DNA of 64,000 nt from Gentiana macrophylla (lineage: Eukaryota; Streptophyta; Magnoliopsida; Gentianales; Gentianaceae). The position numbers and the translations under genes were made by a program. Below, in pieces: positions 14,663 through 39,315 of this stretch. A model generated the notes under the pieces. It was not told where the DNA came from, ran no database searches, and saw only the letters and a program-made list of their open reading frames with translations. Where the stretch lies: contig CM047810.1 of the NCBI GenBank assembly GCA_026214975.1, positions 97,418,316 to 97,482,315 of the forward strand. Reading direction: 5' to 3'. The first letter of the stretch is position 1, and every line of letters begins with the position of its first letter.

Positions 14663-14696
14663 CAGATATACTAATAATCAGCAGTGTACTGGAATT

Positions 14697-15227: not shown

Positions 15228-15348
15228 TATATATACAGACAAATACACAGAGAAGATACTTACAAATTCAGATTGATTTTTTTTTTGAGAATATACAGTG
15301 TGAACACAGATTTGCAAGCTTTCTTCTTCATCTTTTTCAATTTCTTCA
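15228..15348 (+). promoter_or_regulatory. Promoter-like leader before the Copia-2 envelope-position frame
   Basis: TTATATATAC at 15228-15237 lies about 115 bp before the ATG at 15349. It is followed by A-rich then T/C-rich sequence (TTTCTTCTTCATC-type) and an ATG in a good plant context (CAATGGCG). This is the layout of a plant core promoter plus leader and could start a separate envelope-position mRNA. The reading is by pattern only; a spliced transcript from the LTR is the alternative. Confidence 0.4.
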
Positions 15349-17354: not shown

Positions 17355-17454
17355 ATTAATGTTGGAATAACTCTTGGAGATAACAGGCCGATCAGTATGT
17401 GACACCTTATTGGTTGTGGAGTCTGATGTAATTTCTTAGGATCAGCAGACTGAC

Positions 17455-18077
17455 ATGCTAAATGAAGAGATAGGAACTATTTTCAATGAAGATTTGGTAA
17501 TACAGCTTGCTGTAGCAACATCCCTGGAAGAAGCCAAAATATCTACTATTTTTTATGTTGTTATGTTTGAAGAAGCTGATATAAGTTCAGAGGACTCAGC
17601 TCAGTATCAGGAGTGGTTTGACACTCAAGAAACCTTATCACAAGCTGCTGATATCTTACAGAAGGTTGCTGATGCTAGAGGAGTTTTAACGGAAAACTTG
17701 GCTATGTTTCCGCATGTTTTTGTTGAAGAGGTGGTTCAGTTTGCTGAGTTACAAACAGCACCTGAATACAGGTTAGAACAGAGGGTCTTAATCACTGAGG
17801 AACAAACAGTGTTAGGACAAAGGTTGGAACTGTTGATGGGATTGGAGGAATCCCCTGAAGAGGTGGTTCAGGTTGCTAAGTTACACAAGAAGCTGGACAT
17901 GCTTGCTGAGGCACCCCAACCTGCTGTGGTACCTCAACCTGCTGAGACACCTCAACCTGTTGTCCTTGATCCTAAGATTAGTGAGAGGATCAATCTTCTG
18001 GAACAAACAATTGAAGGAAGGATTACTGCAGTTGACACAAGAACTGAGATAATGGAATGTCAACTTGCAAATTTAGT
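17455..18077 (+). pseudogene. Copia-2 envelope-position protein, coiled-coil part
   Basis: About 208 residues, rich in Leu, Glu, Ala and Gln with heptad-like spacing, hence probably coiled coil. A short Pro repeat of PQPA type occurs three times near 17917-17960, and a second helix-rich stretch (ERINLLEQTIEGRI) follows. The frame runs to QLANLV at 18077, where the SINE begins; the last few codons of the open frame are SINE sequence. The same residues reappear after the SINE, showing this was one continuous frame before the insertion. Confidence 0.75.
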
Positions 18078-18317
18078 AAAAAAATGGTAAACCCTACCAT
18101 TAAGGGTCCCCTCACCCCCGATCCCACAGGAAAGTGAGGAGAGGTTAATCAGGTAACCTAGTAGCTCCAACTTGGGCTGCCTTTGAAACCTCTGCACTGA
18201 AGGGTGTTATCAATCGGAAATCAACCCCATTACGGGAATCGAACCGATGACCTCCAGCTTAGGTTAGAGGCTGCACTACGCACCCATGCCTTCACCACTA
18301 GGCCATATACAGGGGAC
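18078..18317 (-). mobile_element. tRNA-derived SINE, antisense, with 17-bp target duplication
   Basis: On the minus strand the head carries both pol III boxes: an A box TGGCCTAGTGGTG (plus 18293-18305) and a B box GGTTCGATTCC (plus 18235-18245). The tail on that strand ends in a run of seven T next to the target site. A perfect 17-bp direct repeat, CAACTTGCAAATTTAGT, flanks it at 18061-18077 and 18318-18334. Length is 240 bp. The boxes and long variable target duplication mark LINE-assisted insertion. It interrupts the Copia-2 envelope-position frame. Confidence 0.93.
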
Positions 18318-18334
18318 CAACTTGCAAATTTAGT

Positions 18335-18881
18335 GATTACACAAGAAAGTGTTCATGGTCTACTGTCCCGGTTTGTTGATGATGTCAATAAGGGGGAAAA
18401 GGGCCTTACAGTAGAAGCAAAGGAAGCTGCAAGGATCTTTGCAAAGAATAAATGGGAAGATGAGATAAATGAGTTCAAGAAACCTACACCTGGCAGGATT
18501 CAGATAACTGATGACCTCCTGAAGGAATACAAGAAGCTATATTATGGAAAGAAAAGACCTTATCATGACATGGGATTTCAGGAAGGACTTAACATATTTT
18601 TGGGATTAAAATTTTGGGAAATAAAGGTCAAGTCACTGAGAGCTTCTTTTAGAGGTAGAAGAGGAGGCAGAGATGAAAGAGGTCAAAGACTGGGATTTCA
18701 GTCAGCAAGGGATTCACTTGAAGAGTTTAAACATTTCTACATGGGACAGGGCTTCAGTGTTCATGCTATAAGGTTAGCCCTACCAGAAGCATGGAAATGG
18801 TGGAAGCGGCTACACACTTGGATTGATTTCTCTACAATAGAAAATCAATGGATGCTAGACATAGTAAGGGAAACCAATTAG
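18335..18881 (+). pseudogene. Copia-2 envelope-position protein, C-terminal part
   Basis: After the second copy of the SINE target site the frame continues openly to a TAG at 18879. The segment is Lys/Glu rich with helices, then a basic Arg/Gly cluster (RGRRGGRDERGQR near 18650), then a Trp-rich end (EAWKWWKRLHTW near 18787). Counting all parts, the frame was about 1,150 codons, very large for a copia envelope-position gene. Function is unknown; RNA binding by the Arg/Gly cluster is only a guess. Confidence 0.7.
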
Positions 18882-19100
18882 TTCCAAGAGAAACAAGAGC
18901 AAGACAGAAAATGTAAAGCGAAATGAAAACTAGATCAAAGACACTTACAATCGCTTATTTTACTTGGCTGATTCTAGTTAGTAATAATGTTGAACAAATG
19001 TGATTTTAATGAAAGATGACTGAATTTGTTCTGTTTGTGTTTTTATCTTTTTGCTTTGCTGTAAGGAGGGTATTGGCATCATCACTAAAAATGAGGAAAT
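18882..19100 (+). other. Copia-2 3' untranslated region and weak polypurine tract
   Basis: No coding frame. The last 30 bp (TTGGCATCATCACT then AAAAATGAGGAAAT) correspond in position and pattern to the Sirevirus CATCATCAAAAA-purine tract that primes plus-strand DNA directly before the LTR, but the G-run is degraded. Confidence 0.7.
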
Positions 19101-20779
19101 TGTTGGACATATTTTAAGTTTTAATGATGAGTGCCAGACTAGCTGTTATAGAGCAAAGGCAAAAAGATGTCTAGATCCAATGTTTAGGTTTATTAGAGTT
19201 TGATCTTTGTATAGGTTTGATCAAACAAGCATTGTAATTAGGTTAGCTGACTTTATCAGCAGACCTGTCTAGATCAGTAGGGTAACTAGGTCAGTAGAGT
19301 GTCTAGGAACTCTTGAAGACCAAGGTCGAGGGTACAAACTCGCTTATTGAAGGCTAAGGGATCAAACTTAGTATTTAAAGTCAAGGATATGGAATCGAAA
19401 ATTTAGGGAAGTGCAGCGATGACCTAAATGATTACATATACCTTGTGTACAAGGTCTAAGTTCCATATGTTAAGTGGTGATTGGAACTTAGCTATGCTCA
19501 AAATGGTGTACTCTAACTTCACAATAAAAATTTAGATGAGAAGAAGTTAGCTGATGTGTTATTAAAACACAGCAGACTTAAACCTGCTGAAAGATGTGTA
19601 CATCAGCAGGCTGTTATACTTCAGATATTTGCTGAGTATATTTCTCAATTTAATCAAGGATTACATTGGAAGATTACAAGGATAAGGATGGATTACAAGC
19701 CTTGATATTGTCAACAAATCAATGGCCAAGATAAAAAGAACATTGGAAAGATTCAGAAGATTAACCAATGGACACAAGTCAAAGGGTGGACCGATCGCGA
19801 TAAAAGCAAGCGACGATTGTCGATCACTATGAAACAGAGACAGAAAGCAAGTCAAGATGAAGACAAATCTAAAACGGCTATGTTTGAAATTCAAACACAA
19901 GTCACAGGATTCTCACCTATAAATAGAAGACTCCTGATTCAGATACAGGTGATGAAAAACAAATAATCTACTAAAAGCTATCAAGTTTTTTATCAAGAAA
20001 ATCACCCTGCTGACATACACAGAGCTTTAACTGACTGATCAAGAAATATCTTCAAGTGTAACCTGCTATCAAGTTACATCAAGAATACACACTTGAAGAC
20101 ATCAAGCTGCTGATCATTTCATCCTGATCAAGCTGCTAACAACTGAATCATTTACTTGATTCAACCTTTCTTTTACAAGAAACCTGCTGAAGACAGAGAA
20201 GCACTTAGGTGTCAAGAACTTTTGTTTGTGGTGGAGCTGGTGAAGAGGCAATCCTACCCTTCAAGGACAAGTGGAATACTTTGGAGTAGTAATCCTACCT
20301 GTTTCAAGTGTTTAGTTTGTGAAGCCATAGTATTGGTGAAGGACAGACAGCTTAGGGATTTTTGTAACTGCAACCTCAAAGATCTCTAGTGAATTTCCTC
20401 CAACATCACAGGAGAAGAGTGGACTGACAGTATTACACCACCTGGAACCACTATAAAATTTGCCTACTTACTTTCTGCATTTAGTATACTGATCACATCA
20501 ACCTACTGAAACTAGCAACTGAAACACACACTTACATAACTGAGTATCTAATACTTAGTTACATCTTTTTAACAAGAAGTAATAAGGCTTAATTTGAATA
20601 TATTCTGCTGCAACAAATTCAGTTATATCAACAGTCAACAGACTCACGAGTGGTCGGAGACTCTCGAGCGATCGGTGACTCGACATTCTTGAGTTTGTTA
20701 ACTCCAAAAGTTTTAAGTGTTAAGTTTATTCACCCCCCCCCCCTCTAAACTTAACCATAGTCTTTTCAAGGGACCTACA
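19101..20779 (+). repeat. Copia-2 3' LTR
   Basis: Starts TGTTGGACAT and ends CCTACA. It has the same TATA box (near 19917) and C-run (near 20732) as the 5' LTR. It ends at the right flank TTATG, matching the left flank GTATG except for the first base. Clusters of difference from the 5' LTR sit near 19790-19830, 20125-20145 and 20630-20690. Confidence 0.95.
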
Positions 20780-21335: not shown

Positions 21336-22329
21336 CCAAGTGGGAAATTTTTGAAATAGTGTCTTAAACCCAATTGGGTTGGACCGGGATCCAACCGGGT
21401 TGGATCATTTCTACTATTTCTTTATGTTTACACATATGTCAAATGGCTTTTCTGTTATTATATATTGGTTCCTTTAGCGGACCAATTACGATATTGTTAT
21501 ATGATAACGTCCCTAGTGTTAAACTGTGAAAGAGAAATCATAATAGTGATTGTGGTTGATGAGATCTTGACTCACTTTAAAAGGTTTGATACTTAAATGT
21601 CTCTAGTCGTATGTGCTATTAAACAAGACATTAATAGTACGATTAGACTAGCACGTATTAGATGTCTTCTATCTTATTGAAGATAGGGATAGATCCCGTC
21701 TATCAAAGTGTATAGACACTTGGACTGTACGTGGACGTGTATTAGAGAATGCATATGTTAGACTGACCCACTTACTTTATTAAGTGTCGCACAATGTGGC
21801 GGTTGTGTAATTATCCTGAGACCGGAGTCTTCATGACATCACGGTGTGGATTGTCATACTTTGACACTATTGAGGTTTCCCTTAGCCATGGGGCGATAAT
21901 GCGATAGTGATTGGGTGTGATACTGAAGCATGCATAGGATTCATGTTGTTCGTCCAGAAATCGTGTATCCTATGATTAGGAGTAAATATCCGAAAGGGCC
22001 TTCTTATAAGGAATGTCTTATTCTCGAAAGTCTTTGCAAAACGGAAATAATATGTTATTTTAAGAGAGTAGGATATCTAGATTATAAGATACGGTCGTTG
22101 ATGTTTCACACTCGATGTACGACCGTATGGATATTGTACCAGCGATAGGATTCTATTTACACGGTAACTGTTTCACATGAAAGGTAGTAGACATTGCATT
22201 TGACTCTTCCAGTGATTGAGGGTCACGGTACGTTGCTAGACGCTATTCCGTGATCGTTAGGTATGAAGGGCATTTTCGTAATTGCACTTTGTGCCTACAG
22301 CCAACATATTCGGAAGCCTATCGGGTCAC
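21336..22329 (+). repeat. Copia-1 polypurine tract and first part of 3' LTR
   Basis: CCAAGTGGGAAAT (21336-21347) is the copia polypurine tract, with one change from the usual GTGGGAGAT. The LTR starts at 21348 with TTTTTGAAATAG in place of an expected TGTTGGAAATAG. From 21871 it matches window positions 1 onward. It is cut at 22329 by Athila-1 and continues at 39316 and 50142, for a total of about 1.8 kb. Confidence 0.88.
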
Positions 22330-24370
22330 TGATGTATAACATTTATATGATAAAAATTACGATATATTTTATCGACTCTTTCTATATAAAATATAAGAAA
22401 TTATAACAATAATCTTATGAAATATTAATAGTTATGAATAAATCTAATTAATATAAAAATCTAGTAAAAGTAATAAAAAGTTATAAATTTTGTACCGGTT
22501 TAATAACCGGAGTGTCGTGTCAGATTTACGTGGGTATTTTTGGTATTTTATTGCAGATTTTAAGACCCCGAGTGACGACACTTTTTGAAGTCAAAACATA
22601 TCTTTTAAAGGAATTAAGAAAGTGTCACAAGTTTAAAAGTTCAAGGGGATCAACGGTTCGTGATACTATTATCGAGATATATATTCGACGAACGAATGGC
22701 CCATCAAAAAGGCATTTTCTGAAGAAGAGTCCTTCATGAAAGTTTTAGATCTTTCAAAGAGCTTTACAACACTTCTTGAATCATGTCAATTGGAGATCTA
22801 CAACTCAAGATATGATTTTATCAAGTTTCAGCTAGAAAATGGAAAAATTACACACGGATCAATCCGACATCACCTCGGATCGATCCGGATTATCAAATAA
22901 TACGAAGTAATGATGATTAGAACATGGTTCTGTAGAAAATAAGCAAGTGATAATTTTTTTTATTCCCTGATCGATCCGACCTTGATCCCGGATCGATCCG
23001 GCCAGGAAAAATCTGCCTATAAATGGACATTTCATGCAGCCTGCAGAGGGGGTACCAATATATATATAGATTAGCTTATATATATCTCTCAAAACCTCTT
23101 TTTCTTAGTAGTAGTTATGTATATATAGGCCTTATGCCATAAATAATGTAATAATAGTAGTATCGTTGTAATGCTCGGAAATTATCGGAAGTTCAATGTT
23201 GTTTGAAGTCGTTGTAATGTCCGGAAGAATACGACCTCTGAATCAATGAGCTTGTAATCGGGTAATTTTCTAAAGTATTTATGTTTGTTATTTTATTTTT
23301 ATCTTTTAATTGTTATAATGTTATTAGGCTAAATCTAATAACTAGCCAAGGTTATGTAATCGTATTATTTCAATCTTTTCGATAAATGAATGTTGTCTAA
23401 GTAAAATTGACAAAAATTGAGTTAATTGAATCTTTTTCTATTTTGCAACGTATTGATAATATTCGGATTGAAGTAATTAATCAAGATGAATCGCAACATA
23501 TAACCTAACGATGAACCGACCGAGAAGTTAGGATATGAGAAAAATGATAGAAAAAACCGGAGGTAAAATTGGCCGTGCGAAAGCGTGACAACGGAATCCT
23601 ATTTCCTACCCGGGGCCAGATTTGTCTTGGGAAGGATTAATCTTATTAAAAATTTGTGCTCAAGATCGTAATAATGTTAAAATCAACAGTTTAATTGAAA
23701 CTAACACTGGAAAGTTGAATCGATCCGCCTGACAACCGGAGCCTTTTGAATAACATCGGCCGTCTGACAAACGGAATAACCTCTTTTATCCGGGGTAGAT
23801 TTGTACTCACTGCTCGAGACTAACTAAGATTAGCATGGGGCAGTTGTGGAGATTGAATCAATGACAAATTGACATATGGAAATTTCATACGCTCGTGTGA
23901 GGAGGAATTGTTAACCTCGTGGAGTGCACCGTTTCATTTTCTCAATTGGACCTAATAAAAGGAAGATCGAGCACATCCGTTAAACCGAAAAGATTGAATA
24001 ATTCAATTATATATATCTTGGCTAGTTCTATAATAATTATTAGTATTTAATATATTGGTATCTATATATATATATATATATATATAGTTTATTATTTATG
24101 TATTACTATATATATTTATGTATTTATATATATAATAATAGTTTAGTTGTGATTTATGAATTTATTTTCTGTTTATTAGTATAATAGCGACTCGTATGAT
24201 AAAACCTGCGATTTAGATTGAGATAATAATAGTTGTTTGGTGTTTAACCACACTTAAAAGAATTACCACGTTTCCCTGAGGATTCGACACTCTGACTCAC
24301 CATACTAGCAATATAATTTGACCCGGTACACTGCCGGTAATGATTGTATAGCACTAGAAAACGTCCGTCA
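22330..24370 (+). repeat. Athila-1 5' LTR (2041 bp)
   Basis: Starts TGATGTATAAC and ends CGTCCGTCA. A TATA box (TATAAAT) is at 23018-23024. U3 holds two pairs of GC-rich palindromes. U5 is long (more than 1.3 kb) and AT-rich with TA repeats near 24065-24085. Compared with the LTR at 36023, differences are few and fall mostly at CTG/CAG sites. Confidence 0.95.
22855..23000 (+). promoter_or_regulatory. Two pairs of 12-bp palindromes upstream of the Athila-1 TATA box
   Basis: Pair 1 is CGGATCAATCCG (22855, one change) and CGGATCGATCCG (22876), start to start 21 bp. Pair 2 is CTGATCGATCCG (22967, one change) and CGGATCGATCCG (22989), 22 bp apart. Pair 2 ends 18 bp before the TATA box. In the LTR at 36023 the same sites are at 36555, 36576, 36667 and 36689, with the first site of pair 2 perfect. 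Spacing of about two helical turns suggests binding of a dimeric factor on one DNA face, which is inference. Confidence 0.75.
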
Positions 24371-24376
24371 GCTTTC

Positions 24377-24394
24377 TGGCGCCGTTGCCGGGGA
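24377..24394 (+). other. Athila-1 primer binding site, tRNA-Asp type
   Basis: TGGCGCCGTTGCCGGGGA complements the 3' end of plant tRNA-Asp and lies six bases after the LTR end. This primer is characteristic of Athila and related Tat-clade gypsy elements. Confidence 0.95.
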
Positions 24395-24575
24395 GGACGT
24401 CGCTAATTTTTCTTTGTGTCTATGGTTACTACTTGTATCAGCTCAAAATTCTTGAGGATAAGTCAACACTATTTCTTATCTCATTTCTATTTTATTTTTC
24501 GTTGGTATCTAATTTCTTTTAGTTACCAATTTTCTTCTTTTACAAAAATCGAGTATTTACTATTTTCGTTAGTTG

Positions 24576-25709
24576 ATGACCAGAAGTGGTAAGGCCCCGC
24601 TCACTCCTTATAAGCCTGACATAAATACTTACGAAAGGCAGTTAAGAGTAGAAAGTAAACGTGGTCATACTAGTCAGGGAAATCCTGACGAATCATCATC
24701 AAACAAAAATACGAGAATGACCGAAATCAGTGATGAAACACCTGAACAAGGGCTAGAACATGCTCAAGGGCATGGACAACACCCTATTAACCCTAATAAT
24801 AATCAAAATCCTAATAATAGGAATAATCAGAATCGGAACCAGAATAATCGTAATAACCCACCAAACCCGAGACCTATTTGTGATCAAACCATAAGAAGAA
24901 ACCAGACTAATAATCCCATTCTTTTACCCAATGAAGGAGCGAATAATTTCGAAATTAAATCTCATCTTTTTGGTTTAATTGACGCAAGAGCCCAATTTCT
25001 AGGAGAGGATGATGAAGATCCACATCATCATCTCTATCTTTTCGAAGAATTGTGCAATACAGCCAAAAGTCAAGGAGCTCATAAGGAACTAACGAGGATG
25101 ACTATGTTTCCTTTTTCTTTAAAAGGACGAGCACGAGATTGGTTTATGTCTCTTCCACATCATTCACTTACTAGTTGGGAGGATATTCAAACTCGAATTT
25201 ACAAACAATATTTCACTCCAGGACGAAATTTGGAATTAAAAGTCGAGGTTGCCAACTTTAGACAAGGATCTGAAGAAACGCTTGGGAATGCCTGGGAAAG
25301 ATTCAAAAAACTGTTAAGAGCTTGTCCCGACCATGGTTATTCCTTAGATATGCAAATCCAACTTTTCTGTCGTAAATTACGGAAAGACTCACGTGCGGAT
25401 GTAGATCATGCATGTGGTGGTTCTTTAATGATGAGTGAAGCACAAACAGTTTACGATGCTATAGAAAAGATTTCCAAAAATAACAGAATGTGGGATACCG
25501 GTTCTAGCACCAGAAAAGTAGCTTTTGCAGGAGAATGTACATCTAATACAGAAGTTCTAGCACATTTGGAAAATTTGAGTAGGAAATTTGATGGCCTACA
25601 ATCGAACAAAAATCAAAATTCAGAAAATAGTACACCAACTGAATACTCAAATCAGGATAATATGCCATTAGGGATCGAAGAACCAACAGGATATTCGAGA
25701 GAGAGGTAA
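24576..25709 (+). CDS. Athila-1 Gag, main open segment
   Basis: The first ATG after the leader (24576) opens 377 codons, ending at TAA 25709; the line-up with the second copy at 38282 supports this start. Residues 1-85 are hydrophilic with Asn-rich tracts. Residues about 110-260 form the retrotransposon Gag domain, including the FLGEDDEDPHHHLYLFEELC block, the FPFSLKGRARDWF block and the FTPGRN and FRQGSEETLGNAWERFKKLL blocks that define plant gypsy Gag. It would form the particle shell. The C-terminal part, usually fused, continues out of frame after 25709. This is the longest intact frame in the window. Confidence 0.9.
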   Translation: MTRSGKAPLTPYKPDINTYERQLRVESKRGHTSQGNPDESSSNKNTRMTEISDETPEQGLEHAQGHGQHPINPNNNQNPNNRNNQNRNQNNRNNPPNPRPICDQTIRRNQTNNPILLPNEGANNFEIKSHLFGLIDARAQFLGEDDEDPHHHLYLFEELCNTAKSQGAHKELTRMTMFPFSLKGRARDWFMSLPHHSLTSWEDIQTRIYKQYFTPGRNLELKVEVANFRQGSEETLGNAWERFKKLLRACPDHGYSLDMQIQLFCRKLRKDSRADVDHACGGSLMMSEAQTVYDAIEKISKNNRMWDTGSSTRKVAFAGECTSNTEVLAHLENLSRKFDGLQSNKNQNSENSTPTEYSNQDNMPLGIEEPTGYSRER

Positions 25710-26990
25710 GTTTTCTTCAAAGAAAGATAGAATTTGAACAATGCATACTCAAACTCGCTTTAATGCTATTAGAAGAGATCACCCTACTTTTCGATGGTCC
25801 AAAACCCTAGTAAGCAAGGACAACCGCCATATCCAGCCCCATATAGGAATACGCCTAATAATCAAGTTTATCGTGAGATGCCTCTAATCGAATTTACAAT
25901 CATTACCTAGATCCTATCCTCAACACACCACTCAAAGTATGCCAGTAACTCAAAGTTCAACTCAACCTGCAGAAGGGATTGAAAATGGGAAAAACTAATG
26001 GATAATATGATGGGTGTGGTATCTACTCAAGCTAAAAATATGGAAACAATGATGACTTCTATTGGTACAGTCACTAAAGATATGAGTACAATAAAAACAT
26101 CTATGAGTGGCCAAGATACCAGAATGAGAACGATAGAAGCCTCATTAAGAAATATGGAAGATCATTTGAGTAGGGAAGGTGAACGTAAGAACAACAGACC
26201 ACCAGGAGGATTACCAAGCAACACTGAAAGAAATCCGAGAGAGGTAAATGCTTGTTACTTCAGAAGTAGAAAACTCGTGGTAGTAATGGAGTAGAAAACT
26301 TCGGAATAATGAAGTAGAAAATGATTTAGATGAAAAAAATGATGAAACTAAAGATGAACTTGAATTCACCGATGAGGAAGAAGAAATTATAGAAGAATTC
26401 TTGAAAGGAAATAGAAGTATGGAACCTGAAAATGAAGGTGAAAAATGGGTAAAAATCCCTAGGATTTTAAAAGATCCCATGGATAAAGATTTAAGGACTT
26501 TATTCAAGGAACATGTTAGAATAGAAGATCTCAAAACCAAGGATGAAAAACAAGAAGAGTTGAAAGAATCGGAAGTAGAGATTGATTCGAGGAACGCTTT
26601 TAAAGAAAAATTTCAAGATCATGATACTTGGCGATCAAGTAATACTCAAAAGTTTAAGGAGAAAGGAAAAGAGAAAATGACTTCGGGATCAAGGGTTATA
26701 GATTTAGAATCTTTACCTTACCCACCTAAAGATCAAATTAAAAAGATTAAAACTGATAAGAAGTATGCTCGTTTCCTTGATACTTTTCGTCATATTCATG
26801 TTATTATCCCTGTTATCGAAGCTCTAATTAGTATGCCCATGCTTATGGAAAGTTTCTGAAAGATATTCATCAAACAAGAAAAATTAGAGGAATATGAGAA
26901 TATATGCCTAAATGAAGAATGTTCTCAGCTTTTGCAAAGATAAGTTACCACCTAAAATGAAAGATCCAGAAGTTTTACCATTCCATGTGA
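25710..26990 (+). pseudogene. Athila-1 Gag C-terminal linker, broken
   Basis: Open pieces 25998-26294 and 26401-26859 carry Athila hallmarks: a Met/Thr-rich helix, GGLPSNTERNPREV near 26206, a long acidic/Lys-rich stretch, and the PYPPKDQIKK...FRHIHVIIPVIEAL block near 26717-26830 that precedes protease in this family. Stops or shifts occur near 25709, 26293 and 26857. It joins Gag to protease in the polyprotein. Confidence 0.8.
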
Positions 26991-27330
26991 AATTGGAGGA
27001 TTTTTGTTTAAGAAGGTCTTATGTAATCTTGGAGCTAGTATAAATCTCATGTCTTATGAGGATTATAGAAAGCTAGGCATAGGAAAGCTTACGAAGACGG
27101 AAATGACTCTGCAAATGGCAGATAGATCGATTAAATACCCTAAAGGAATTATTGAGGACGTATTGGTTAAAGTAGACAAAGTTCTATTTTCCAAAGAGAC
27201 TTTGTAGTCATGGAAATGGAAGAAGGATATTCAAATACCACTTATCTTAGGTCGACCATTTCTAGCTACAGAAGAACTTTAATAGATGTCCGAGAAAGGA
27301 GAGTTAATTACGAGAGTCAATGAAGATGAA
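26991..27330 (+). pseudogene. Athila-1 aspartic protease, active-site Asp lost
   Basis: The block around 27016-27060 reads CNLGASINLMS, where Athila proteases have CDLGAS. The catalytic Asp is replaced by Asn (GAT to AAT), so even an intact frame should be inactive. Downstream blocks TLQMADRSIKYPKGIIEDVLVK (27106-27170) and LILGRPFL-like sequence (near 27245, after a frameshift) confirm the family. It would process the polyprotein. Confidence 0.85.
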
Positions 27331-27699
27331 GTTGCTTTCAATATATTCAAAGATATGGAACATCCATACAGGATCACCGTAATCATGTTCTTTTATAGAA
27401 GATATTCACTGCCTCTATGATATTCGATTACCAACTTTTGAAGACAGATTAAGAAGAATGCTTAACTCTGTCTATCTATAAGGAAGATGAGAAAGACACC
27501 GAAATGAAAGAAATAATCCTTTCTCTAGATAAAGGAAATTTTACTTTTAAACCATCATGGCATAAGTATTTGGAATTAGAACTAGAAGGACCAGTTCTTT
27601 AACCATCACTGGCAGATCCACCTAAGAATCTGGAATTGAAACCGTTACCTTTAAATCTGAAGTATGCTTTTCTTGAAACTAATAATCTATTACGGTTAT

Positions 27700-28760
27700 T
27701 ATTTCATCATCTTTAATCGAGCAACAAGAAGATCAATTACTTAGAATGTTGAAAAGGCATAAGAAAGCTTTTGGATGGACAATTGCCGATATTCGAGGTA
27801 TTAGCCACGAGATTTGCGCTCATAAGATAATTACGAAGGAAGATGCTAAACCTTGTATTCAACCGCAACGCCGCCTCAACCCAAATTTGCAGTTAATTGT
27901 TAAAAAGAGGTCATTAAGCTATTAGAAATGGGGATAATTTTTCCCATATCGAGATAGTGAATGGGTAAGTCCAACTCAAGTGGTACCAAAGAAAGGAGGT
28001 TTCACGGTGAAAGAAAATGAAAAGAATGAATGGATTCCGACAAGAGAGATTACAGGTTATCGAATGTGCATTGATTTTCGAAAACTAAATGATCATACTA
28101 AGAATGATCATCATCCACTTCCATTCATAGTGCAAATGTTGGAACGCTTAAGTGGACATAAGTATTACTGTTTCTTAGATGGTTATTCAGGATATTTACA
28201 GATATTCATTGCAGCAGGAGATAGAGAAAAGACTACTTTCACTTGTCCGTATGGAACCTACGCTTAGAAAAGAATGCCGTTTGGTTTATGTAATGCACCA
28301 GCAACATTTCAGAGATGTATGATGGCTATATTTTCTGACATGGTCGAGAAGTTTTTAGAAATTTTTATGGATGACTTTAGTGTGTACGGAGATTCCTTCG
28401 ATGAATGCTTATCGCACTTAGAACGAGTGTTACAACTCTGCGAGGATACCAATTTAGTTTTAAACTGGGAAAAATGTCACTTAATGGTATCAGAAGGGAT
28501 TGTTCTAGGTCATAGAATCTCTGAAGTAGGTATCGAAGTTGATAAAGCTAAAGTCGAGGTAATCGAAAAGTTACCTCCACCAGTTAATTTAAGAACCTTA
28601 AGAGGATTTCTCGGACATGCAGGATTTTATAGAAGATTTATTGCAGATTTTTCGAAAATAGAAAAGCCTCTAAGTCATTTGCTTGAAAAGGAAGTACCTT
28701 TTAACTTTGATAGTAAATGTACGGAAGCCTTCGCACCCTAAAAGTGAGGTTAACTCATCG
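27700..28760 (+). pseudogene. Athila-1 reverse transcriptase
   Basis: Ty3/gypsy RT blocks are in order: HKAFGW-type and DI-GIS near 27765-27805, QRRLNP near 27870, VVPKKGG near 27980, CIDFRKLND near 28066, FLDGYSGY near 28173, RMPFGLCNAPATFQRCM near 28273, catalytic FMDDFSVYGD at 28363-28392, and FLGHAGFYRRFI near 28610. The Met in FMDD is normal for Athila/Tat RT. One TAG at 28266 interrupts the two best segments (27980-28267 and 28274-28741), and shifts occur upstream. Confidence 0.92.
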
Positions 28761-29160
28761 CACCAAATGCTAGTAGCAGCACCAGATTGGAGTTTGCCGT
28801 TTGAAATTATGTGTGATGCGAGTGATTTGGTCAGTAGGAGCGCTTTTAGGTCAAAGATATAATAAAGTACTCAAAGCAATCTACTATGCATCTCACACAT
28901 TAAACGCAATTTCACCTTAATTACGCAACTACGAAAAAGAAGCTGTTGGTGTAATTTTTGCCTTAGATAAGTTTAGATCGTATATCGTTGGATCTAAGGT
29001 TATTATCTATACTGACTCCATTCAAAGATCAAGTATTTACTAAGTAAGAAAGATGCTAAACCACGTCTTCTTAGATGGATACTCTTACTACAAGAATTTG
29101 ATATTGAAATTAAGGATAAAAAGGAAGTGAAAATGTAGTAGCGGATCATCTAAGTAGAAT
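28761..29160 (+). pseudogene. Athila-1 RNase H, decayed
   Basis: Between RT and integrase, gypsy RNase H blocks can be followed across shifts: FEIMCDASD near 28800, YYASHTLNA near 28885, NYEKEAVGVIFALDKFRSYIVGSKV near 28930, IYTDS near 29008, and the VADHLSR-like end near 29143. The catalytic Asp in CDASD, Glu in YEKE and Asp in YTDS are present. Confidence 0.85.
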
Positions 29161-29399
29161 GGAAAATGATGAAGAAATAGGAAATGAAATTAAAGATTCA
29201 TTTCCTGATGAACAACTGTTTAGAATCGATACTCCTTCAACCATGCAATTATTAAAGAATAGAATTCCTTCTAAGGAAATGTCACCTTGGTTTGGAGATA
29301 TCATTAATTACTTAAGCTGTGATTATATTCCGTCTCATTGGACTTGGCAAATGTAAAAGAAGTTCTTTATAACTTAAAATTTTATTACCGGGAAGAACT

Positions 29400-30595
29400 G
29401 GACCTTTTCCGTAAGTGTTCGGATGGGATAATCGTAAAATGTGTACCGATAATGAAATTTTAAGTGTTTTATCATTTTGTCATGATCGTGAGGCGAGGTC
29501 ATCATGGAGGTTGGAAAACTGCTTTTAAAGTTTTACAATGTGGTTTTTATTGGCCTACACTATATAGAGATGCTTATAAGTATGTTAAATCTTGTGAGTC
29601 TTGTCAAAAATGGGGAAATATATCTAAAAAACATGAAATGCCTATGCAACTTATTTTAGAATGTGAATTATTTGATGTTTGGGGTATAGATTTCATGGGA
29701 CCTTTCCCTATATCTTTTGGAAAAAGATTTATTCTTGTGATGGTAGATTATGTTTCAAAATGGGTGAAAGTTGAAGCTCTTCCCACTAATGATACCAAAG
29801 TTGTCATACGATTCCTTAAAAAGAATATATTACCGATATATGGCATTCCGAGAGCTATCATTAGTGATAGAGGGTCACACTTTTGCAATAGACCATTTAC
29901 TAAGATAGTTGAGAAATATGGTGTAACGCATAAGTTAGGCACGCCCTATGATCCACAGACCAGTGGTCAGGTAGAGGTGTCTAATAGAGAAATTAAAAGA
30001 ATTGTAGAAAAAGCAGGTGGACTCAAATCGTAAAAGCGGGCAGAGAAACGGATGATGCATTATGGGCATACAGAATGACCTTTAAAACACCAATTGGTTG
30101 TTCTCCTACAAACTAGTTTTTGGTAAATCTTGTCATCTCCTGGTTGAATTAGAACACCGGGCCTTTTGGGCTATTAGATTTTTGAATTTCGATCCTAAGG
30201 CTGTCGGTGATCACAGATTACTTCAGTTAACAGAACTAGAAGAATTTCGTCTCGATTCTTATGAAAACGCTCGAATCTACAAGGAACGCACGAAATCTTT
30301 TCACGATAAGAGAATTTATAGTCGTGAGCTCCATGTAGGTGATCGAGTGTTATTGTACAATTCACGTTTAAAGTTATTTCCAGGTAAGCTTAAATCAAGA
30401 TGGACGAGTCCATTTAGAGTAATAAGGGTTTACAAATGCTGAGTCATTGAACTAACTGATGGAAGTACAACTTTTATAGCCAATGGCCACAGGGTAAAGC
30501 TGTTTGTGGAAGGAGAAGGGACCTCTCTGAGGAAAGAAGTAATGTTGCTAACAGATCCACATAAAATCGGCGAGCAGAAAACTAAGTTCAAATGA
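29400..30595 (+). pseudogene. Athila-1 integrase
   Basis: The zinc domain has HHGGW near 29500 and CESCQKWG near 29593. The core is nearly intact from 29464 to 30033: [10 protein letters not shown] (first Asp, near 29680), [13 protein letters not shown] (second Asp, near 29860) and [13 protein letters not shown] (Glu, near 29963) with DDE spacing normal for gypsy. After a break near 30033 the C-terminal part resumes (30098-30442: LLQLTELEEFR, YKERTKSFHDK, GDRVLLYNSRLKLFPGKLKSRW), and a last piece follows a TGA near 30442. It joins the element's DNA to the host genome. Confidence 0.93.
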
Positions 30596-30724
30596 GTCCT
30601 GTGTACTATCTTTCTTGTTTACTTTACTTTTCTATGTTTTATATGTTTGAACTAGTTTCGTCTTTTACCGGGTAGACGTAAAAGAACTGGATGTTTTTTT
30701 TTAGATAGAATAGGAGTTTTTATT

Positions 30725-31096
30725 TTGCTTTTGAAGTTAGGCCTTGATAAGGATGTTGCGTTTACAATAGAAGCTTCAGTTTTTGAGAAAAACAAGCAAT
30801 TATTGAGAGAGATCAGATTGAAAGAAGTTTGTAATGGAAAATCGAGAAGTTCGATAAAGAGAAGGGCAAAGTTTTTAATGCGATCAGAAATCTGTGGAAA
30901 AAGTGAGCATAATGGGAAATGTGGAGAAAGCACAACCAAATCTCAGGATGAGTGTTTGAATGTTGTCAAGAAGGGAACGATTAGGTGGTTATCCGAAAAT
31001 CCCAATGGAGATCAAATAGAAAATTCGAACGCCTCATTTCTCAAGGTTAGGTTGATAGAACGATATATCAGAACTCTGGAAGATTTAGAAATATAG
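30725..31096 (+). CDS. Unrecognised 123-codon frame after Athila-1 integrase
   Basis: The frame is Lys/Glu/Ser rich with a few Cys and no recognised domain. It lies between integrase and the first palindrome pair that precedes the envelope-position region. It may be a decayed remnant or chance. No ribosome-context or homology support can be given. Confidence 0.2.
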   Translation: MLLKLGLDKDVAFTIEASVFEKNKQLLREIRLKEVCNGKSRSSIKRRAKFLMRSEICGKSEHNGKCGESTTKSQDECLNVVKKGTIRWLSENPNGDQIENSNASFLKVRLIERYIRTLEDLEI

Positions 31097-31273
31097 GAAT
31101 TAGGACCCCCATAAGTCTCGAATATTTTACTTTTTATTTCGAACGCTTTTTATAAAAAAATTTGCATAACCTTTGAAAATTTTATAAAATTGGATCTTTA
31201 TAAAATTTATGAAAGTTTTATAACAAAGTTTTATAAAAGTTTTATTTCAAAAAAAAAAAAAAAAAAAAATTGT

Positions 31274-31306
31274 CGGATCGATCCGACATGACACCGGATC
31301 GATCCG
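31274..31306 (+). promoter_or_regulatory. Palindrome pair upstream of Athila-1 envelope-position frame 1
   Basis: Two perfect CGGATCGATCCG copies at 31274 and 31295, start to start 21 bp, directly after a run of about 19 A. The same module occurs in the LTR before the TATA box, so it may mark a second promoter or have been copied with a regulatory segment. Confidence 0.7.
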
Positions 31307-31594
31307 GTACCTGAAAAACCTAAAAAACGGGATTTCTTTCTTCTTCTTCCTCTTCCAAATTTTTTTTTTTTTTTTCACAGCCGCCCCTCACCCCATCATC
31401 CCCACTCGAAATTTTTTTCTTTCATCACATAAACACACTATCACATTACCCCACTCTTTATTTTATTCTCCTTTTCCCCTCTTCTCTTCAATCTCTCACT
31501 CAAAATTGAAAAATTTCAAGAAAAAGGGTCAACTTTCATTCCGGCGACTTTTCATCTTTTCCGGCCAACTTTTCAACCTTTATAGTCTATCAAG

Positions 31595-31732
31595 GTAACA
31601 ATGTAGTATTTTATCTTATCAATTTCGTTTTTTTTGTAATTTTAGTAATTTATTTTCAACTGTACTGTTATTCACTTGTGTTGTTTTGGTTTTGTTTGTT
31701 TTTGTTTTTTAATTATTGTGTCACTATCGTAG
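31595..31732 (+). other. Intron-like segment in the leader of envelope-position frame 1
   Basis: CAAG|GTAACA at 31594/31595 looks like a 5' splice site and ATCGTAG at 31726-31732 like a 3' splice site. The 138 bp between are about three-quarters A/T with T-runs, as plant introns are. The acceptor lies one base before the ATG at 31734. Upstream sequence (31380-31560) is C/T-rich like a plant 5' leader. This is prediction by pattern only. Confidence 0.4.
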
Positions 31733-31733
31733 A

Positions 31734-33227
31734 ATGGCCGAATCCTCTAGAACAGCTGTTAAAAAACGAAAACAAGATATCCCCATCTCAGTACCAGTTA
31801 TAGAAACGAGGCCTTTAACAGATGACGAATTGGCCGTTAGTTTTGAGCGAACTGCGTCTAGAGCAGCTAGAGATGCATATAAGAATGTTTTTGGAAAGTG
31901 TATAGCTGAGATAGAAAGGGGTATCGATTTTTCGGTTTTAGGGGATGAAGTTAAAGCAATATTTGAGAAAAGACAGTGGTTGGAAATAGCAGCATTGAGA
32001 GAAGGGGAGGTTAACACGACTATAGTTTCTGAATTTTATTCTCTGTTAAGGACGCATAATTCGACAGAGAATGGAGAGTTGACCTTTGTTACCCTTAGAA
32101 CTAGACAAGTGCCGTTTAATCCTAGCGTCATCAATGCTATTTATGGTATAGAAGATGTCCCTGATGAGGAGGATTATTACACGGTATGGAACCTTAATGA
32201 TGAAGCTGATTTTGAACAGAGAGCCCTATTAGCCCAAAACGAGCTTGATCCTACGGCTAATTGGCATGAAAATAGGTTTGGTTACGGAATCAGACAGGGA
32301 TATTAGAGCACTTAAGCGTTTTATTAGCTACACTCTTTACCCCTCTCGTCATTTGACATCCTTCGGTAAAGCGGATGTTTGTATTGCTTGGGCAATGGTA
32401 AATGATGTTCCCATAAATGTGGGAAAAATAATGTACAAGAGGTCTTTGAAATTTTCTGCGAAGGCTAGGCCGGGAAGTCATATGCCTTTCCCGTGTTTTA
32501 TTTCTGCCTTATGTCAAAGACTCGGTGTTCCGACCTTGCCTAATGATAAGTTGATCTTGGCTAATGAAGCCTTAATTGGCCCTAATTTGAAGCGTCTACC
32601 GGATGGGAAAATTGATTATAACAACCCGAACCGCCGCCGACCTCAAAATATTCCATCGGTTTCCCAACCTACCGTTGTTCCTCCATCTTCTAGTCAATCA
32701 CAGTCTCAGCTCCCTAATACCATCACATATGACATGTTTCAATCTTTAGCCTATGATGTTCATCGTGCCAATGCCAATATGGCTGTTTATGACATGAATA
32801 AAGCAAAGTGGTCTCAAGATTTGAGACAAGGGATACGCGGTATATATCAAATGAATATACTTGAAACCCCGCTTACGCCGAAATGAACATTCCAGATCGC
32901 TAACTCGAGCCGTATACCATGCCCGATTTCATTCCACCGATGCCACCCCAATCCAGCTTCCAACCAATGTCACATTCCTTTGGAAGTCAAACTAGTGGTG
33001 TAGGTCAATTTTGTACAGGTATGACGGCTCCAGTTACGTCAAGTTGGGGAGGTTTTGAAGCATTTGTCAATATCACGGCTGGGATGAGTTCGATTGGTTT
33101 AGATAGCACGGTTACGATGTCGACGCCATTTCAAGATACATTGTTCGAGTCGACCGAAGATCCTGCTACTTCCCAACCCATGCCGGGATCGAGTTTCAAT
33201 GTGGAGATTGATGCTACCGACAACTGA
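31734..33227 (+). pseudogene. Athila-1 envelope-position protein 1
   Basis: ATG at 31734 (AGAATGGCC) opens 190 codons to 32306. The frame shifts near 32280 and continues to 32886, then to 33227 after another break. Readable features are a basic start (KKRKQD), a KRQWLEIAAL block near 31969, FVTLRTRQVPFNPSVINAIYG near 32083, ALKRFISYTLYPSRH near 32310, and a Pro/Ser/Gln-rich tail. The pattern fits the plant-transposon protein domain seen after integrase in many Athila-like elements. No signal peptide or membrane segment is evident. Its role is unknown. Confidence 0.75.
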
Positions 33228-33492
33228 TTTAATTTTTTATGATAATTTGGCACTTAAACAATTTACTTTAGTATTTTGTGTTTTGTTTCGACAATTAAGC
33301 GTTTTTTTTTTCTCGTTGTAGTTTTGGTCACGATAAATTTATAAGTTTTTTCCCGCTATTTTGTATTTCAAAACGTTTTATGTCGTGTTATAAATATTTT
33401 TAAAACTACAAAAATATCATAAGTTTGAAAGTTAGAAAAAATCTGGGCATTTGAAAGACAAATTTTGTCTCTCAGATTGCTCTAATGATCGC

Positions 33493-33598
33493 CGGATCGA
33501 TCCGATCCAACCCGGATCGATCCGGCCTGTCATTGCCGACTGACATAGCTATATACCTAGTGGTCCGGATCGATCCGGTCCAGTCTCGGATCAATCCG
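33493..33598 (+). promoter_or_regulatory. Two palindrome pairs upstream of Athila-1 envelope-position frame 2
   Basis: CGGATCGATCCG at 33493 and 33513 (20 bp apart), and again at 33566 with CGGATCAATCCG at 33587 (21 bp apart). They lie 130-240 bp before the ATG at 33731, repeating the arrangement before frame 1. Confidence 0.7.
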
Positions 33599-33730
33599 TA
33601 CTACTTTAATGTCAAAGTACAGATTTTTTTTTCCACTTTTGCCTCAGATTTACGCTTTCAGAAAAGGCAAGAGAAAGGTCACGATCTTTGCTCATTCCTT
33701 TCTCATTTCTATCTGAATTTCTTTTATAAA

Positions 33731-36022: not shown

Positions 36023-38076
36023 TGATGTATAACATTTATATGATAAAAATTACGATATATTATATATTTTATCGACTCTTTCTATATAAAATATAAGAAA
36101 TTATAACAATAATCTTATGAAATATTAATAGTTATGAATAAATCTAATTAATATAAAAATCTAGTAAAAGTAATAAAAAGTTATAAATTTTGTACCGGTT
36201 TAATAACCGGAGTGTCGTGTCAGATTTACGTGGGTATTTTTGGTATTTTATTACAGATTTTAAGACCCCGAGTGACGACACTTTTTGAAGTCAAAACATA
36301 TCTTTTAAAGGAAGTAATAAAGTGTCACAAGTTTAAAAGTTCAAAGGGATCAACGGTTCGTGATACTATTATCGAGATATATATTCGACGAACGAATGGC
36401 CCATCAAAAAGGCATTTTCTGAAGAAGAGTTCTTCATGAAAGTTTTAGATCTTTCAAAGATCTTTCCAACGCTTCTTGAATCATGTCAATTGGAGATCTA
36501 CCACTCAAGATATGATTTTATCAAGTTTCAGCTAGAAAATGGAAAAATTACACACGGATCAATCCGACATCACCTCGGATCGATCCGGATTATCAAATAA
36601 TACGAAGTAATGATGATTAGCACATGGTTCTGTAGAAAATAAGCAAGTGATAATGTTTTTTATTCCCGGATCGATCCGACCTTGATCCCGGATCGATCCG
36701 GCCAGGAAAAATCTGCCTATAAATGGACATTTCATGCAGCCTGCAGAGGGGGTACCAATATATATATATATATATAGATTAGCTTATATATATCTCTCAA
36801 AACCTCTTTTTCTTAGTAGTAGTTATGTATATATAGGCCTTATGCCATAAATAATGTAATAATAGTAGTATCGTTGTAATGCTCGGGAAATTATCGGAAG
36901 TTCAATGTTGCTGAAGTCGTTGTAATGTCCGGAAGAATACGACCTCTGAATCAGCAGTTGTAATCGGGTAATTTTCTAAAGTATTTATGTTTGTTATTTT
37001 TATTTTTATCTTTTTAATTGTTATAATGTTATTAGGCTAAATCTAATAACTAGCCAAGGTTATGTAATCGTATTATTTCAATCTTTTCGATAAATGAATG
37101 TTGTCTAAGTAAAATTGACAAAAATTGAGTTAATTGAATCTTTTTCTATTTTGCAACGTATTGATAATATTCGGATTGAAGTAATTAATCAAGATGAATC
37201 GCAACATATAACCTAACGATGAACTGACCAGAGAAGTTAGGATATGAGAAAAATGATAGAAAAAACCGGAGGGTAAAATTGGCCGTGCGAAAGCGTGACA
37301 ACGGAATCCTATTTCCTACCCGGGGGCAGATTTGTCTTGGGAAGGATTAATCTTATTAAAAATTTGTGCTCAAGATCGTAATAATGTTAAAATCAACAGT
37401 TTAATTGAAACTAACACTGGAAAGTTGAATCGATCCGCTTGACAACCGGAGCCTTTTGAATAACATCGGCCGTCTGACAAACGGAATAACCTCTTTTATC
37501 CGGGGTAGATTTGTACTCGGTACCTGTTCAGACTAACTAAGATTAGCATGGGGCAGTTGTGGAGATTGAACTGATGACAAATTGACATATGGAAATTTCA
37601 TACGCTCGTGTGAGGAGGAATTGTTAACCTCAGGAGTGCACCGTTTCATTTTCTCAATTGGACCTAATAAAAGGAAGATCGAGCACATCCGTTAAACCGA
37701 AAAGATTGAATAATTCAATTATATATATCTTGGCTAGTTCTATAATAATTATTAGTATTTAATATATTGGTATCTATATATATATATATAAAGTTTATTA
37801 TTTATGTATTACTATATATATTTATGTATTTATATATATAATAATAGTTTAGTTGTGATTTATGAATTTATTTTCTGTTTATTAGTATAATAGCGACTCG
37901 TATGATAAAACCTGCGATTTAGATTGAGATAATTATAGCTGTTTGGTGTTTAACCACACTTAAAAGAATTACCACGTTTCCCTGAGGATTCGACACTCTG
38001 ACTCACCATACTAGCACTATAATTTGACCCGGTACACTGCCGGTAATGATTGTATAGCACTAGAAAACGTCCGTCA
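36023..38076 (+). repeat. Athila-1 second (middle) LTR, 2054 bp
   Basis: Starts TGATGTATAAC and ends CGTCCGTCA. It is nearly identical to the 5' LTR by eye, with short length differences in TA runs (near 36760) and scrambled spots at CTG/CAG sites (for example near 37515 and 37570). It serves as the 3' LTR of the long copy and the 5' LTR of the truncated copy that follows. Confidence 0.95.
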
Positions 38077-38082
38077 GCTTTC

Positions 38083-38100
38083 TGGCGCCGTTGCCAGGGA
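38083..38100 (+). other. Second Athila-1 primer binding site
   Basis: TGGCGCCGTTGCCAGGGA follows the middle LTR by six bases and has one change (G to A) from the first copy. Its presence after a 3' LTR shows that a second element copy was joined in tandem. Confidence 0.92.
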
Positions 38101-38281
38101 GGACGTCGCTAATTTTTCTTTGTGTCTATGGTTACTACTTGTATCAGCTCAAAATTCTTGAGGATAAGTCAACACTATTTCTTATCTCATTTCTATTTTA
38201 TTTTTCGTTGGTATCTAATTTCTTTTAGTTACCAATTTTCTTCTTTTACAAAAATCGAGTATTTACTATTTTCGTTAGTTG

Positions 38282-39052
38282 ATGACCAGAAGTGGTAAGG
38301 CCCTGCTCACTCCTTATAAGCCTGACATAAATACTTACGAAAGGCAGTTAAGATTAGAAAGTAAACGTGGTCATACTAGTCAGGGAAATCCTGACGAATC
38401 ATCATCAAACAAAAATACGAGAATGACCGAAATCAGTGATGAAACACCTGAACAAGGGCTAGAACATGCTCAAGGGCATGGACAACACCCTATTAACCCT
38501 AATAATAATCAAAATCCTAATAATAGGATTAATCAGAATCGGAACCAGAATAATCGTAATAACCCACCAAACCCGAGACCTATTTGTGATCAAACCATAA
38601 GAAGAAACCAGACTAATAATCCCATTCTTTTACCCAATGAAGGAGCGAATAATTTCGAAATTAAATCTCATCTTTTTGGTTTAATTGACGCAAGAGCCCA
38701 ATTTCTAGGAGAGGATGATGAAGATCCACATCATCATCTCTATCTTTTCGAAGAATTGTGCAATACAGCCAAAAGTCAAGGAGCTCATAAGGAACTAACG
38801 AGGATGACTATGTTTCCTTTTTCTTTAAAAGGATGAGCACGAGATTGGTTTATGTCTCTTCCACATCATTCACTTACTAGTTGGGAGGATATTCAAACTG
38901 AATTTCTGAAACAATATTTCACTCCAGGACGAAATTTGGAATTAAAAGTCGAGGTTGCCAACTTTAGACAAGGATCTGAAGAAACGCTTGGGAATGCCTG
39001 GGAAAGATTCAAAAAACTGTTAAGAGCTTGTCCCGGCCATGGTTATTCCTTA
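38282..39052 (+). pseudogene. Second Athila-1 gag copy, truncated
   Basis: Nearly identical to 24576-25350. A TGA near 38834 replaces CGA of the first copy (KGRARDWF block), so the frame splits into 38282-38836 and 38852 onward. The copy ends inside the ACPGHGYSLD block, where it joins the third LTR at a shared short AT run (GATAT/ATATAT). Confidence 0.93.
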
Positions 39053-39315
39053 GATATATATTTATGTATTTATATATATAATAATAGTTTAGTTGTGATT
39101 TATGAATTTATTTTCTGTTTATTAGTATAATAGCGACTCGTATGATAAAACCTGCGATTTAGATTGAGATAATAATAGTTGTTTGGTGTTTAACCACACT
39201 TAAAAGAATTACCACGTTTCCCTGAGGATTCGACACTCTGACTCACCATACTAGCACTATAATTTGACCCGGTACACTGCCGGTAAGGATTGTATAGCAC
39301 TAGAAAACGTCTGTC
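39053..39315 (+). repeat. Athila-1 third LTR, 3' end only
   Basis: Matches the last 263 bp of the other Athila-1 LTRs (compare 37815-38075) and ends ACGTCTGTC, one base short of the usual CA end. The remainder of the copy, from mid-gag to mid-LTR, is deleted. Confidence 0.92.

Follow-up and report, generated by a model that had tools for sequence, protein, structure and literature searches.

Paired Palindromes at Two-Turn Spacing Recur Upstream of the TATA Box and Accessory Genes of an Athila-Type Retroelement in Gentiana macrophylla

Palindrome pairs of the Athila-type element

The 64,000-nt stretch of Gentiana macrophylla DNA analyzed here (assembly GCA_026214975.1, contig CM047810.1, positions 97,418,316 to 97,482,315 of the forward strand; hereafter, the window) contains a Ty3/Gypsy retroelement that carries pairs of the 12-bp palindrome CGGATCGATCCG in its long terminal repeats (LTRs) and internal region. 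The two sites of a pair lie about 21 bp apart, and the pairs precede the LTR TATA box and two extra open reading frames (ORFs) located after the integrase. The Gypsy order was recognized by an RVT_1 reverse transcriptase (RT) upstream of the integrase core and by Retrotrans_gag, with Ty3_capsid found only below the cut-off. The Athila type is assigned by description, based on the label given in an earlier reading of the sequence (the original prediction), the approximately 2-kb LTR, the ORFs after the integrase, and the primer binding site, which we take to be of the tRNA-Asp type.

The window was searched for CGGATCGATCCG with up to two mismatches allowed, which yielded 17 matches where 0.59 are expected and where the maximum of 100 shuffles was 5. 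All 10 sites of the five pairs in the original prediction were recovered, seven of them exact; the sites at 22855 and 33587 read CGGATCAATCCG, and the site at 22967 reads CTGATCGATCCG. The spacings of these pairs (21, 22, 21, 20, and 21 bp) fall within the predicted 20 to 22 bp. The 3′ LTR adds two pairs (36555/36576 and 36667/36689), so the element as it lies holds 14 sites in seven pairs, 10 of the sites being in the linker and the 3′ LTR. One pair had been predicted to end 18 bp before the LTR TATA box; the measured distance is 15 bp to CCTATAAA and 17 bp to TATAAA. The features of the element are as follows.

22330 to 24370 (+): 5′ LTR, approximately 2 kb, from the LTR-repeat alignment, end approximate
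22855 to 22887 (+): pair P1 of the 5′ LTR (CGGATCAATCCG acatcacct CGGATCGATCCG), spacing 21 bp
22967 to 23000 (+): pair P2 of the 5′ LTR (CTGATCGATCCG accttgatcc CGGATCGATCCG), spacing 22 bp
23016 to 23023 (+): LTR TATA box CCTATAAA, placed after the end of P2 (23000) at a distance similar to that in relatives
24377 to 24394 (+): primer binding site TGGCGCCGTTGCCGGGGA, read from the sequence
24573 to 25709 (+): gag ORF, Pfam Retrotrans_gag, 4.3e-17
31274 to 31306 (+): palindrome pair before extra ORF 1, spacing 21 bp
31319 to 31326 (+): TATA-like CCTAAAAA, 12 bp past the ORF 1 pair, a gap equal in 5/6 leaders
31595 to 31732 (+): possible intron of the 5′ untranslated region (5′ UTR) (AAG GTAACA ... 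CGTAG A), immediately upstream of the ATG at 31734, predicted from the sequence, with its ends also present in locus L014
31734 to 32886 (+): extra ORF 1 (“env position”), PF20167 Transposase_32, reading frame disrupted inside the domain in the window copy
33493 to 33524 (+): first palindrome pair before extra ORF 2, spacing 20 bp
33566 to 33598 (+): second palindrome pair before extra ORF 2, spacing 21 bp
33658 to 33667 (+): place of the ORF 2 TATA box, tcagaaaagg in the window and CTATAAA(A)GG in loci L006, L016, and L014
33731 to 34267 (+): extra ORF 2 with ATG start (MSNHSSPSV...), PF20167, broken at its end in the window copy
36023 to 38065 (+): 3′ LTR, from the LTR-repeat alignment, end approximate
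36555 to 36587 (+): P1 in the 3′ LTR, spacing 21 bp
36667 to 36700 (+): P2 in the 3′ LTR, spacing 22 bp, both sites exact
36716 to 36723 (+): TATA box of the 3′ LTR, 15 bp past P2

Positions 22330 to 25351 and 36023 to 39057 are 97.6% identical over 3,047 aligned positions, a stretch that extends beyond the LTR and includes the beginning of another internal region. This second internal start (to approximately 39057, within gag) follows the 3′ LTR and is itself followed directly by the end of a third, partial LTR (39054 to 39315). These additional parts (window 38066 to 39315) make the element a partial tandem that has undergone a deletion.

Pair spacing across the genome

The 1.79-Gb host assembly was searched for the palindrome, with the pattern read backwards as the control. 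Exact CGGATCGATCCG occurs at 15,938 sites, compared to 26 for the reversed pattern. Exact pairs with a gap of 0 to 30 bp number 6,545, of which 6,175 have a gap of 8 to 10 bp and 4,500 a gap of 9 bp (equivalent to a spacing of 21 bp); the reversed control gave 0 pairs in each case. Thus, 94% of the close pairs fall into 3 of the 31 possible gaps, and 69% into a single one. Among 50 listed pairs from the first 22.3 Mb of one contig, the spacings were 19 (3 pairs), 20 (9), 21 (32), and 22 bp (6).

A scan that named neither the sequence nor the spacing was run on the window and on 16 loci picked for holding a site (L005 to L020; L001 to L004 overlap L005 and L006 and were excluded from the counts). 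Perfect palindromes of at least 10 bp and at least 40% GC were collected if a second copy with no more than two mismatches was present at a distance of 8 to 60 bp. The distance was 20 to 22 bp in 70/90 pairings, where a pair may be counted once per side.

Layout in related elements

The whole layout of the window element recurs elsewhere as seven exact pairs, at C1:19815772, 19815873, 19824052, 19826268, 19826339, 19829564, and 19829666. It is also found in a distant relative (L013/L014, C1:4.30 to 4.32 Mb) whose identity to the window element is 44% in gag, 56% in RT, 55% in the integrase, 33 to 68% in pieces of ORF 1, and 40 to 49% in ORF 2. In this relative, as in the window, each LTR carries two pairs, ORF 1 is preceded by one pair, and ORF 2 is preceded by two, in agreement with the original prediction that pairs precede both envelope-position frames. 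A third element (L016; ORF 1 70 to 72% and ORF 2 59% identical) has a like layout, with one pair decayed in the single LTR seen.

The distance from the pairs to the TATA box was analyzed by allowing the motif C(T/C)TATA(A/T)A or CTATA(A/T)A at 0 to 60 bp downstream. Such a motif follows 36 pairs, five of which are in ORF 2 leaders. In the remaining 31, P2 ends 11 to 17 bp before the TATA box without exception, and exactly 15 bp before it in 15 of them. Some LTRs have the proximal pair only (L012, L028, L029, L030, L032, L033, and L035). The distance from the start of the right P1 site to the start of the left P2 site falls into two groups, 79 to 81 bp (5/22 rows) and 90 to 94 bp (17/22), which are one helical turn apart and probably reflect a single insertion or deletion.

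Conservation of palindromes and fillers

Ten representatives were compared first, nine of them from loci picked for exact sites and two (the window and L024) belonging to one subfamily. The mean pairwise identity was 97% for the palindromes and 95% for the TATA box, compared to 68% and 65% for the two fillers (the sequences between the sites of a pair), 73% between the pairs, and 67% from the pair to the TATA box. When the worse pair of each LTR was used, with L016 replacing L024, the palindromes were 91% identical.

A second set of LTR copies was fetched independently of the palindromes, using the 129 bases downstream of the last palindrome (36702 to 36830). The best 40 of 370 candidates were scored, corresponding to 41 matches at 40 places (L024 and L046 to L084), all of which were read. 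Among these descent-related copies, all 40 keep an exact last palindrome in P2, and P2 is intact at a spacing of 22 bp in 36/40; P1 is intact at 21 bp in 38/40, 35 of which were scored by script and three (L065, L076, and L081) by eye. In one copy (L068), P1 is replaced by other DNA.

In the 35 copies with four sites, mismatches outside CpG number 1/910 in the palindromes, 7/665 in the fillers, 34/700 upstream, and 87/980 downstream; between the pairs, they number 48/2175 (29 copies of equal length). Mismatches at CpG number 12/770 in the palindromes versus 20/116 between the pairs. The palindromes differ from the sequence between the pairs both outside CpG (P = 1.5e-6, Fisher test) and at CpG (P = 2.8e-11), and the corresponding value for the fillers is P = 0.075. 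The palindromes are the slowest-changing part of LTR copies that were fetched without regard to them. That CpG inside the sites decays little would be consistent with selection acting in the copying lineages or with the sites being protected from methylation.

On the presumed sense strand, pyrimidines make up 62% of the 43 distinct fillers, which include some of undecided orientation and contain zero CpG; with the undecided ones dropped, 34 fillers are 69% pyrimidine, again with zero CpG. Dyad symmetry was found to extend by two further bases within the individual sites in 11/48 and 10/48 rows, more often than in shuffles (means 5.5 and 4.3; maxima of 500 shuffles 13 and 10), and between sites in 3 (6.0 in shuffles), although the rows are related by descent and the test is consequently weak.

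Origin of the pairs by tandem duplication was considered using the same fillers. Without orientation, the filler weakly resembles the low-coordinate flank (0.339 versus 0.267; maximum of 500 shuffles, 0.337). Once the fillers are oriented (34 distinct fillers; 10/73 pairs dropped because their orientation is undecided), this resemblance is lost, with values of 0.326 against 0.339 for the bases after the right site and 0.282 against 0.313 for the bases that precede the left one. The oriented filler is thus not repeated on either flank of the pair; a simple repeat, which the original prediction had set aside for CGGATCGATCCG, is not supported, nor is a tandem-duplication origin.

Accessory genes and their leaders

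The two ORFs after the integrase are related to each other, with cross-matches of 31% and 21% in L016. PF20167 scores exceed the cut-off of 45 in relatives, at 93.7 bits for ORF 1 of L016, where the domain is intact, and 77.6 bits for ORF 2 of L006; the broken pieces in the window score 38.0 to 44.4 bits, under the cut-off. For ORF 1 of L016, no protein homologue and no match to a solved structure were found. On the minus strand of L006 (positions 1918 to 2817), an ORF has a PF04195 Transposase_28 domain, reported as TRP28 in Retand elements, and a Retand/Tat-type element may lie next to the L006 copy.

Core-promoter motifs are present downstream of the internal pairs. The TATA-like CCTAAAAA lies exactly 12 bp past the ORF 1 pair in the window, L007, L014, L023, and L037, and is replaced by CCTCAAAG in L016; a wider form of the motif at a gap of 10 to 18 bp is present at 0.4% of random places. 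It is followed, in the window and L014, by a CT-rich leader and a candidate intron (AAG|GTAACA ... CGTAG|A) upstream of the ATG. The donor of this intron is also present in L016, whose shown stretch stops before the acceptor. Judged by these motifs, ORF 1 probably has a 5′-UTR intron. In front of ORF 2, a CTATAAA box is located 56 to 58 bp past the second pair in L006, L014, and L016.

A second palindrome type

The Athila-type element is not the only carrier of paired palindromes in the window. A second retroelement, with LTRs at 39338 to 40743 and 48729 to 50141, carries GCACTCGGTCGACCGAGTGC, CTCGGTCGACCGAG, and TCGGTCGACCGA, and two of its features are relevant here.

39799 to 39818 (+): 20-bp palindrome GCACTCGGTCGACCGAGTGC of the second element; its partner 22 bp on is decayed, and is intact in L042 (481/503)
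40922 to 40955 (+): leader pair of the second element, past the primer binding site (TTCGGTCGATCCGAA, CTCGGTCGACCGAG)

Pairs of CGGTCGACCG, the second palindrome type, number 10,979 genome-wide at a gap of 0 to 30 bp (control, 1). Among 50 listed pairs, the spacing was 22 bp in 48, 23 bp in 1, and 24 bp in 1. The sites also form longer arrays, with four sites at exact 22-bp steps found twice in L041 and three sites in L042 and L045, some with one or two mismatches. By eye, pairs of this type precede a TATATAA box in some LTRs. None of the ORFs scanned in the second element (6 of the 11 after the integrase) matched PF20167.

The sequences outside the two retroelements (21871 to 22329, left of 22330, and 50142 to 50955, right of 50141) match pieces of one repeat that is also present at window positions 1 to 2555. 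The two elements, which together make up 27.8 kb, appear to be inserted in a copy of that repeat, approximately at the equivalent of 1726 to 1769.

Interpretation of the pairs

The tight spacing of 20 to 22 bp, the narrow distance to the TATA box, the conservation of the palindromes, and their reuse before two genes are best explained by a paired binding site for a two-fold-symmetric protein. We propose, with a probability of about 0.72, that the pairs are cis-regulatory modules, each for two protein dimers, that would serve three promoters of the element. Starting from the observed sequence, spacing, conservation, and positions of the pairs and from the adjacent core-promoter motifs, we infer protein binding, cooperativity on one helix face, promoter activity, and the splice. 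Each 12-bp palindrome would be bound by a protein of two-fold symmetry, probably a homodimer. Two dimers, with centers approximately 21 bp (two turns) apart, would occupy one face of the helix and act as a single unit. In the LTR, the proximal unit would stand approximately 15 bp upstream of the TATA box. Copies of the module upstream of the two accessory PF20167 genes would each be followed by a core promoter of their own. For ORF 1, this would consist of the TATA-like CCTAAAAA 12 bp on, a pyrimidine-rich leader, and the probable 5′-UTR intron; for ORF 2, of a TATA box approximately 57 bp on that is lost in the window copy. The three promoters of an element would thereby come under one factor, and a host-encoded factor is slightly favored over an element-encoded one because Sireviruses of other plants share the CGG-CCG theme.

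Several observations weigh against this proposal. The 40 LTR copies include the window's two LTRs and other LTR couples related by descent, so their counts are not independent. In 4/40 (L065, L076, L080, and L081), P2 is collapsed to one site, as is P1 in L080; the loss of one palindrome together with the filler probably results from recombination between the two sites of the pair. The difference between palindromes and fillers outside CpG has a P value of only 0.012. The fillers hardly vary within the window's subfamily (the 35 copies contain 4 and 2 distinct strings), with mean pairwise identities of 98.1% and 97.8% compared to 98.5% for the palindromes. The variable sequence between sites claimed in the original prediction is therefore found when different pairs of an element or different subfamilies are compared and not inside this subfamily, where the fillers come close to the equal conservation that had been named as evidence against it. 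Four pairs, located in L015, L018 (two), and L019, lack a TATA-like motif in the 45 bp to each side. The TATA box of ORF 2 is present in 3/5 leaders read that far, the window (TTTCAGAAAAGG) and L038 (TTACATAAAAGG) lacking it. Pairs of the second type are also seen, by eye, several hundred bases past the TATA box, as well as in the leader downstream of the primer binding site, locations that a simple upstream-enhancer reading leaves unexplained.

The factor could instead be the element's own, with a PF20167 accessory protein binding the pairs and regulating its own expression or countering silencing, in the manner of VANC. The position of the module before both accessory genes would suit such a role, as would a basic KKRK stretch at the start of ORF 1 in the window and L016 and the much lower decay of CpG within the palindromes than between the pairs. 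There are precedents in that VANC proteins bind short repeated motifs in noncoding parts of their elements (PMC5735166) and that the Retand accessory protein TRP28 is predicted to bind DNA (PMC11963269). However, ORF 1 of L016 yielded neither a structure match nor a homologue, the second element has a paired palindrome and no PF20167 among its scanned ORFs, and CGG-CCG palindromes are also used by Sireviruses. We consider an element-encoded factor unlikely. A more speculative version, to which we give somewhat less credence, is a self-contained circuit of the Athila type, in which the duplicated PF20167 genes, classified until now as envelope-position or “transposase” genes, would encode nuclear proteins that bind the pairs in the LTR and in their own promoters, shield the CpG-rich sites from methylation, and switch the element on, Sireviruses having converged on the same CGG-CCG code. 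If so, a large part of the plant “env-like” genes would encode transcription or antisilencing factors.

Alternatively, the pair may act as a nucleic acid structure, namely, a 12-bp hairpin with a loop of 8 to 10 nt, a cruciform, or a kissing dimer, with a role in packaging, splicing, or stability. The pair sequences are self-complementary enough to form the hairpin, and all of them are present in the genomic RNA, the U3 pairs by way of the 3′ LTR. Retroviruses have dimer signals in the leader past the primer binding site, the region where second-type pairs are also found. Yet a hairpin would have no need of a loop length fixed to one or two bases, and the narrow distance to the TATA box speaks against it, as do the triples (L042 and L045) and quadruples (L041, twice) of the second type, all at 22-bp steps. 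The dyad symmetry, in the weak test on related rows, extends within the sites and not between them. The original prediction had offered a dimeric protein or a cruciform; the former fits best, and the structural reading, as a cruciform or a hairpin, is improbable and not favored in view of the tight spacing, the equally spaced triples and quadruples, and the within-site dyad extension.

That the pairs are functionless leftovers of tandem duplication, or recombination copies inside the element, is very improbable: the identical or near-identical palindromes in seven pairs of one element and the second-type quadruple arrays with two identical fillers in succession would be accounted for, but the CpG-rich palindromes still change far less than neighboring bases, and the places of the pairs are kept in a relative with an RT only 56% alike.

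Relationship to known repeated motifs

The closest known counterpart is found in Sireviruses, a group of Ty1/Copia elements in which repeated motifs precede the TATA box and the ENV gene (Bousios et al. 2010, PMC2829016). The original prediction had noted GC-rich palindromes in Sirevirus LTRs, and the likeness proves closer than it supposed. In both systems, the palindromes have a CGG-CCG core (here, in CGGATCGATCCG and CGGTCGACCG), clusters (here, of CGGATCGATCCG) are located upstream of the LTR TATA box, and further copies precede the env-position gene; the letters of the second palindrome type are those of the repeated motif given for a Vitis Sirevirus, CGGTCGACCG (PMC2829016). That account uses a criterion of at least eight copies, compared to 14 sites in the window element, or 10 on the basis used there (linker plus 3′ LTR). 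It describes the motif as Sirevirus specific and absent from classic Ty1/Copia elements, whereas the carrier here is a Ty3/Gypsy element of the Athila type, and the 12-bp CGGATCGATCCG sites are strictly paired at approximately 21 bp, their distance to the TATA box varying little. The available portions of the Sirevirus account (PMC2829016) give no rule for pairing or spacing.

The window itself holds a Copia element (RVT_2, 7433 to 20779) with LTRs 91% identical and additional ORFs lying downstream of pol and ahead of the 3′ LTR, a Sirevirus-like layout. A search of this element for perfect even-length CGG-CCG palindromes of at least 10 bp, odd-length ones not being sought, found none.

Two other systems are comparable in part. 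The VANC target of VANDAL transposons, YAGTATTAY, for which binding was demonstrated by experiment (Hosaka et al. 2017, PMC5735166), is likewise a short motif repeated in noncoding parts and differing between related families. It is no palindrome pair, and no spacing rule is apparent in the available portions of that account; for the pairs described here, binding is predicted from the sequence. The accessory gene of Grande, between pol and the 3′ LTR, has its own promoter and a nuclear product (Gomez-Orte et al. 2013, as cited in PMC11963269). The Grande gene is antisense, and the common one of Retand encodes TRP28 (PF04195), in contrast to the sense-oriented PF20167 genes with shared pairs found here.

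The literature, represented mostly by titles and the openings of abstracts, revealed no such palindromes in Ty3/Gypsy elements and no two-turn pairing. In a search of printed text for the 12-mers, only GGATCGATCC and, once, GGTCGACCGAGT were among the matches listed, under unrelated titles. Neither pair was found in viral contigs, as expected for a plant element. What appears to be new, as judged from these comparisons, is the Ty3/Gypsy carrier of the Athila type and the fixed two-turn pairing, with the Sirevirus CGG-CCG repeats as the closest known case.

Proposals for how genes located after the integrase are expressed include spliced mRNA, suppression of stop codons, and internal promoters (PMC2829016). 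The internal-promoter idea becomes directly testable because one sharply defined module marks both the LTR promoter and the two internal genes. That Copia and Gypsy elements use the same palindrome code suggests either a host factor common to both or convergent evolution. Nearby host genes may also be affected by the module, given the thousands of copies present in one genome.

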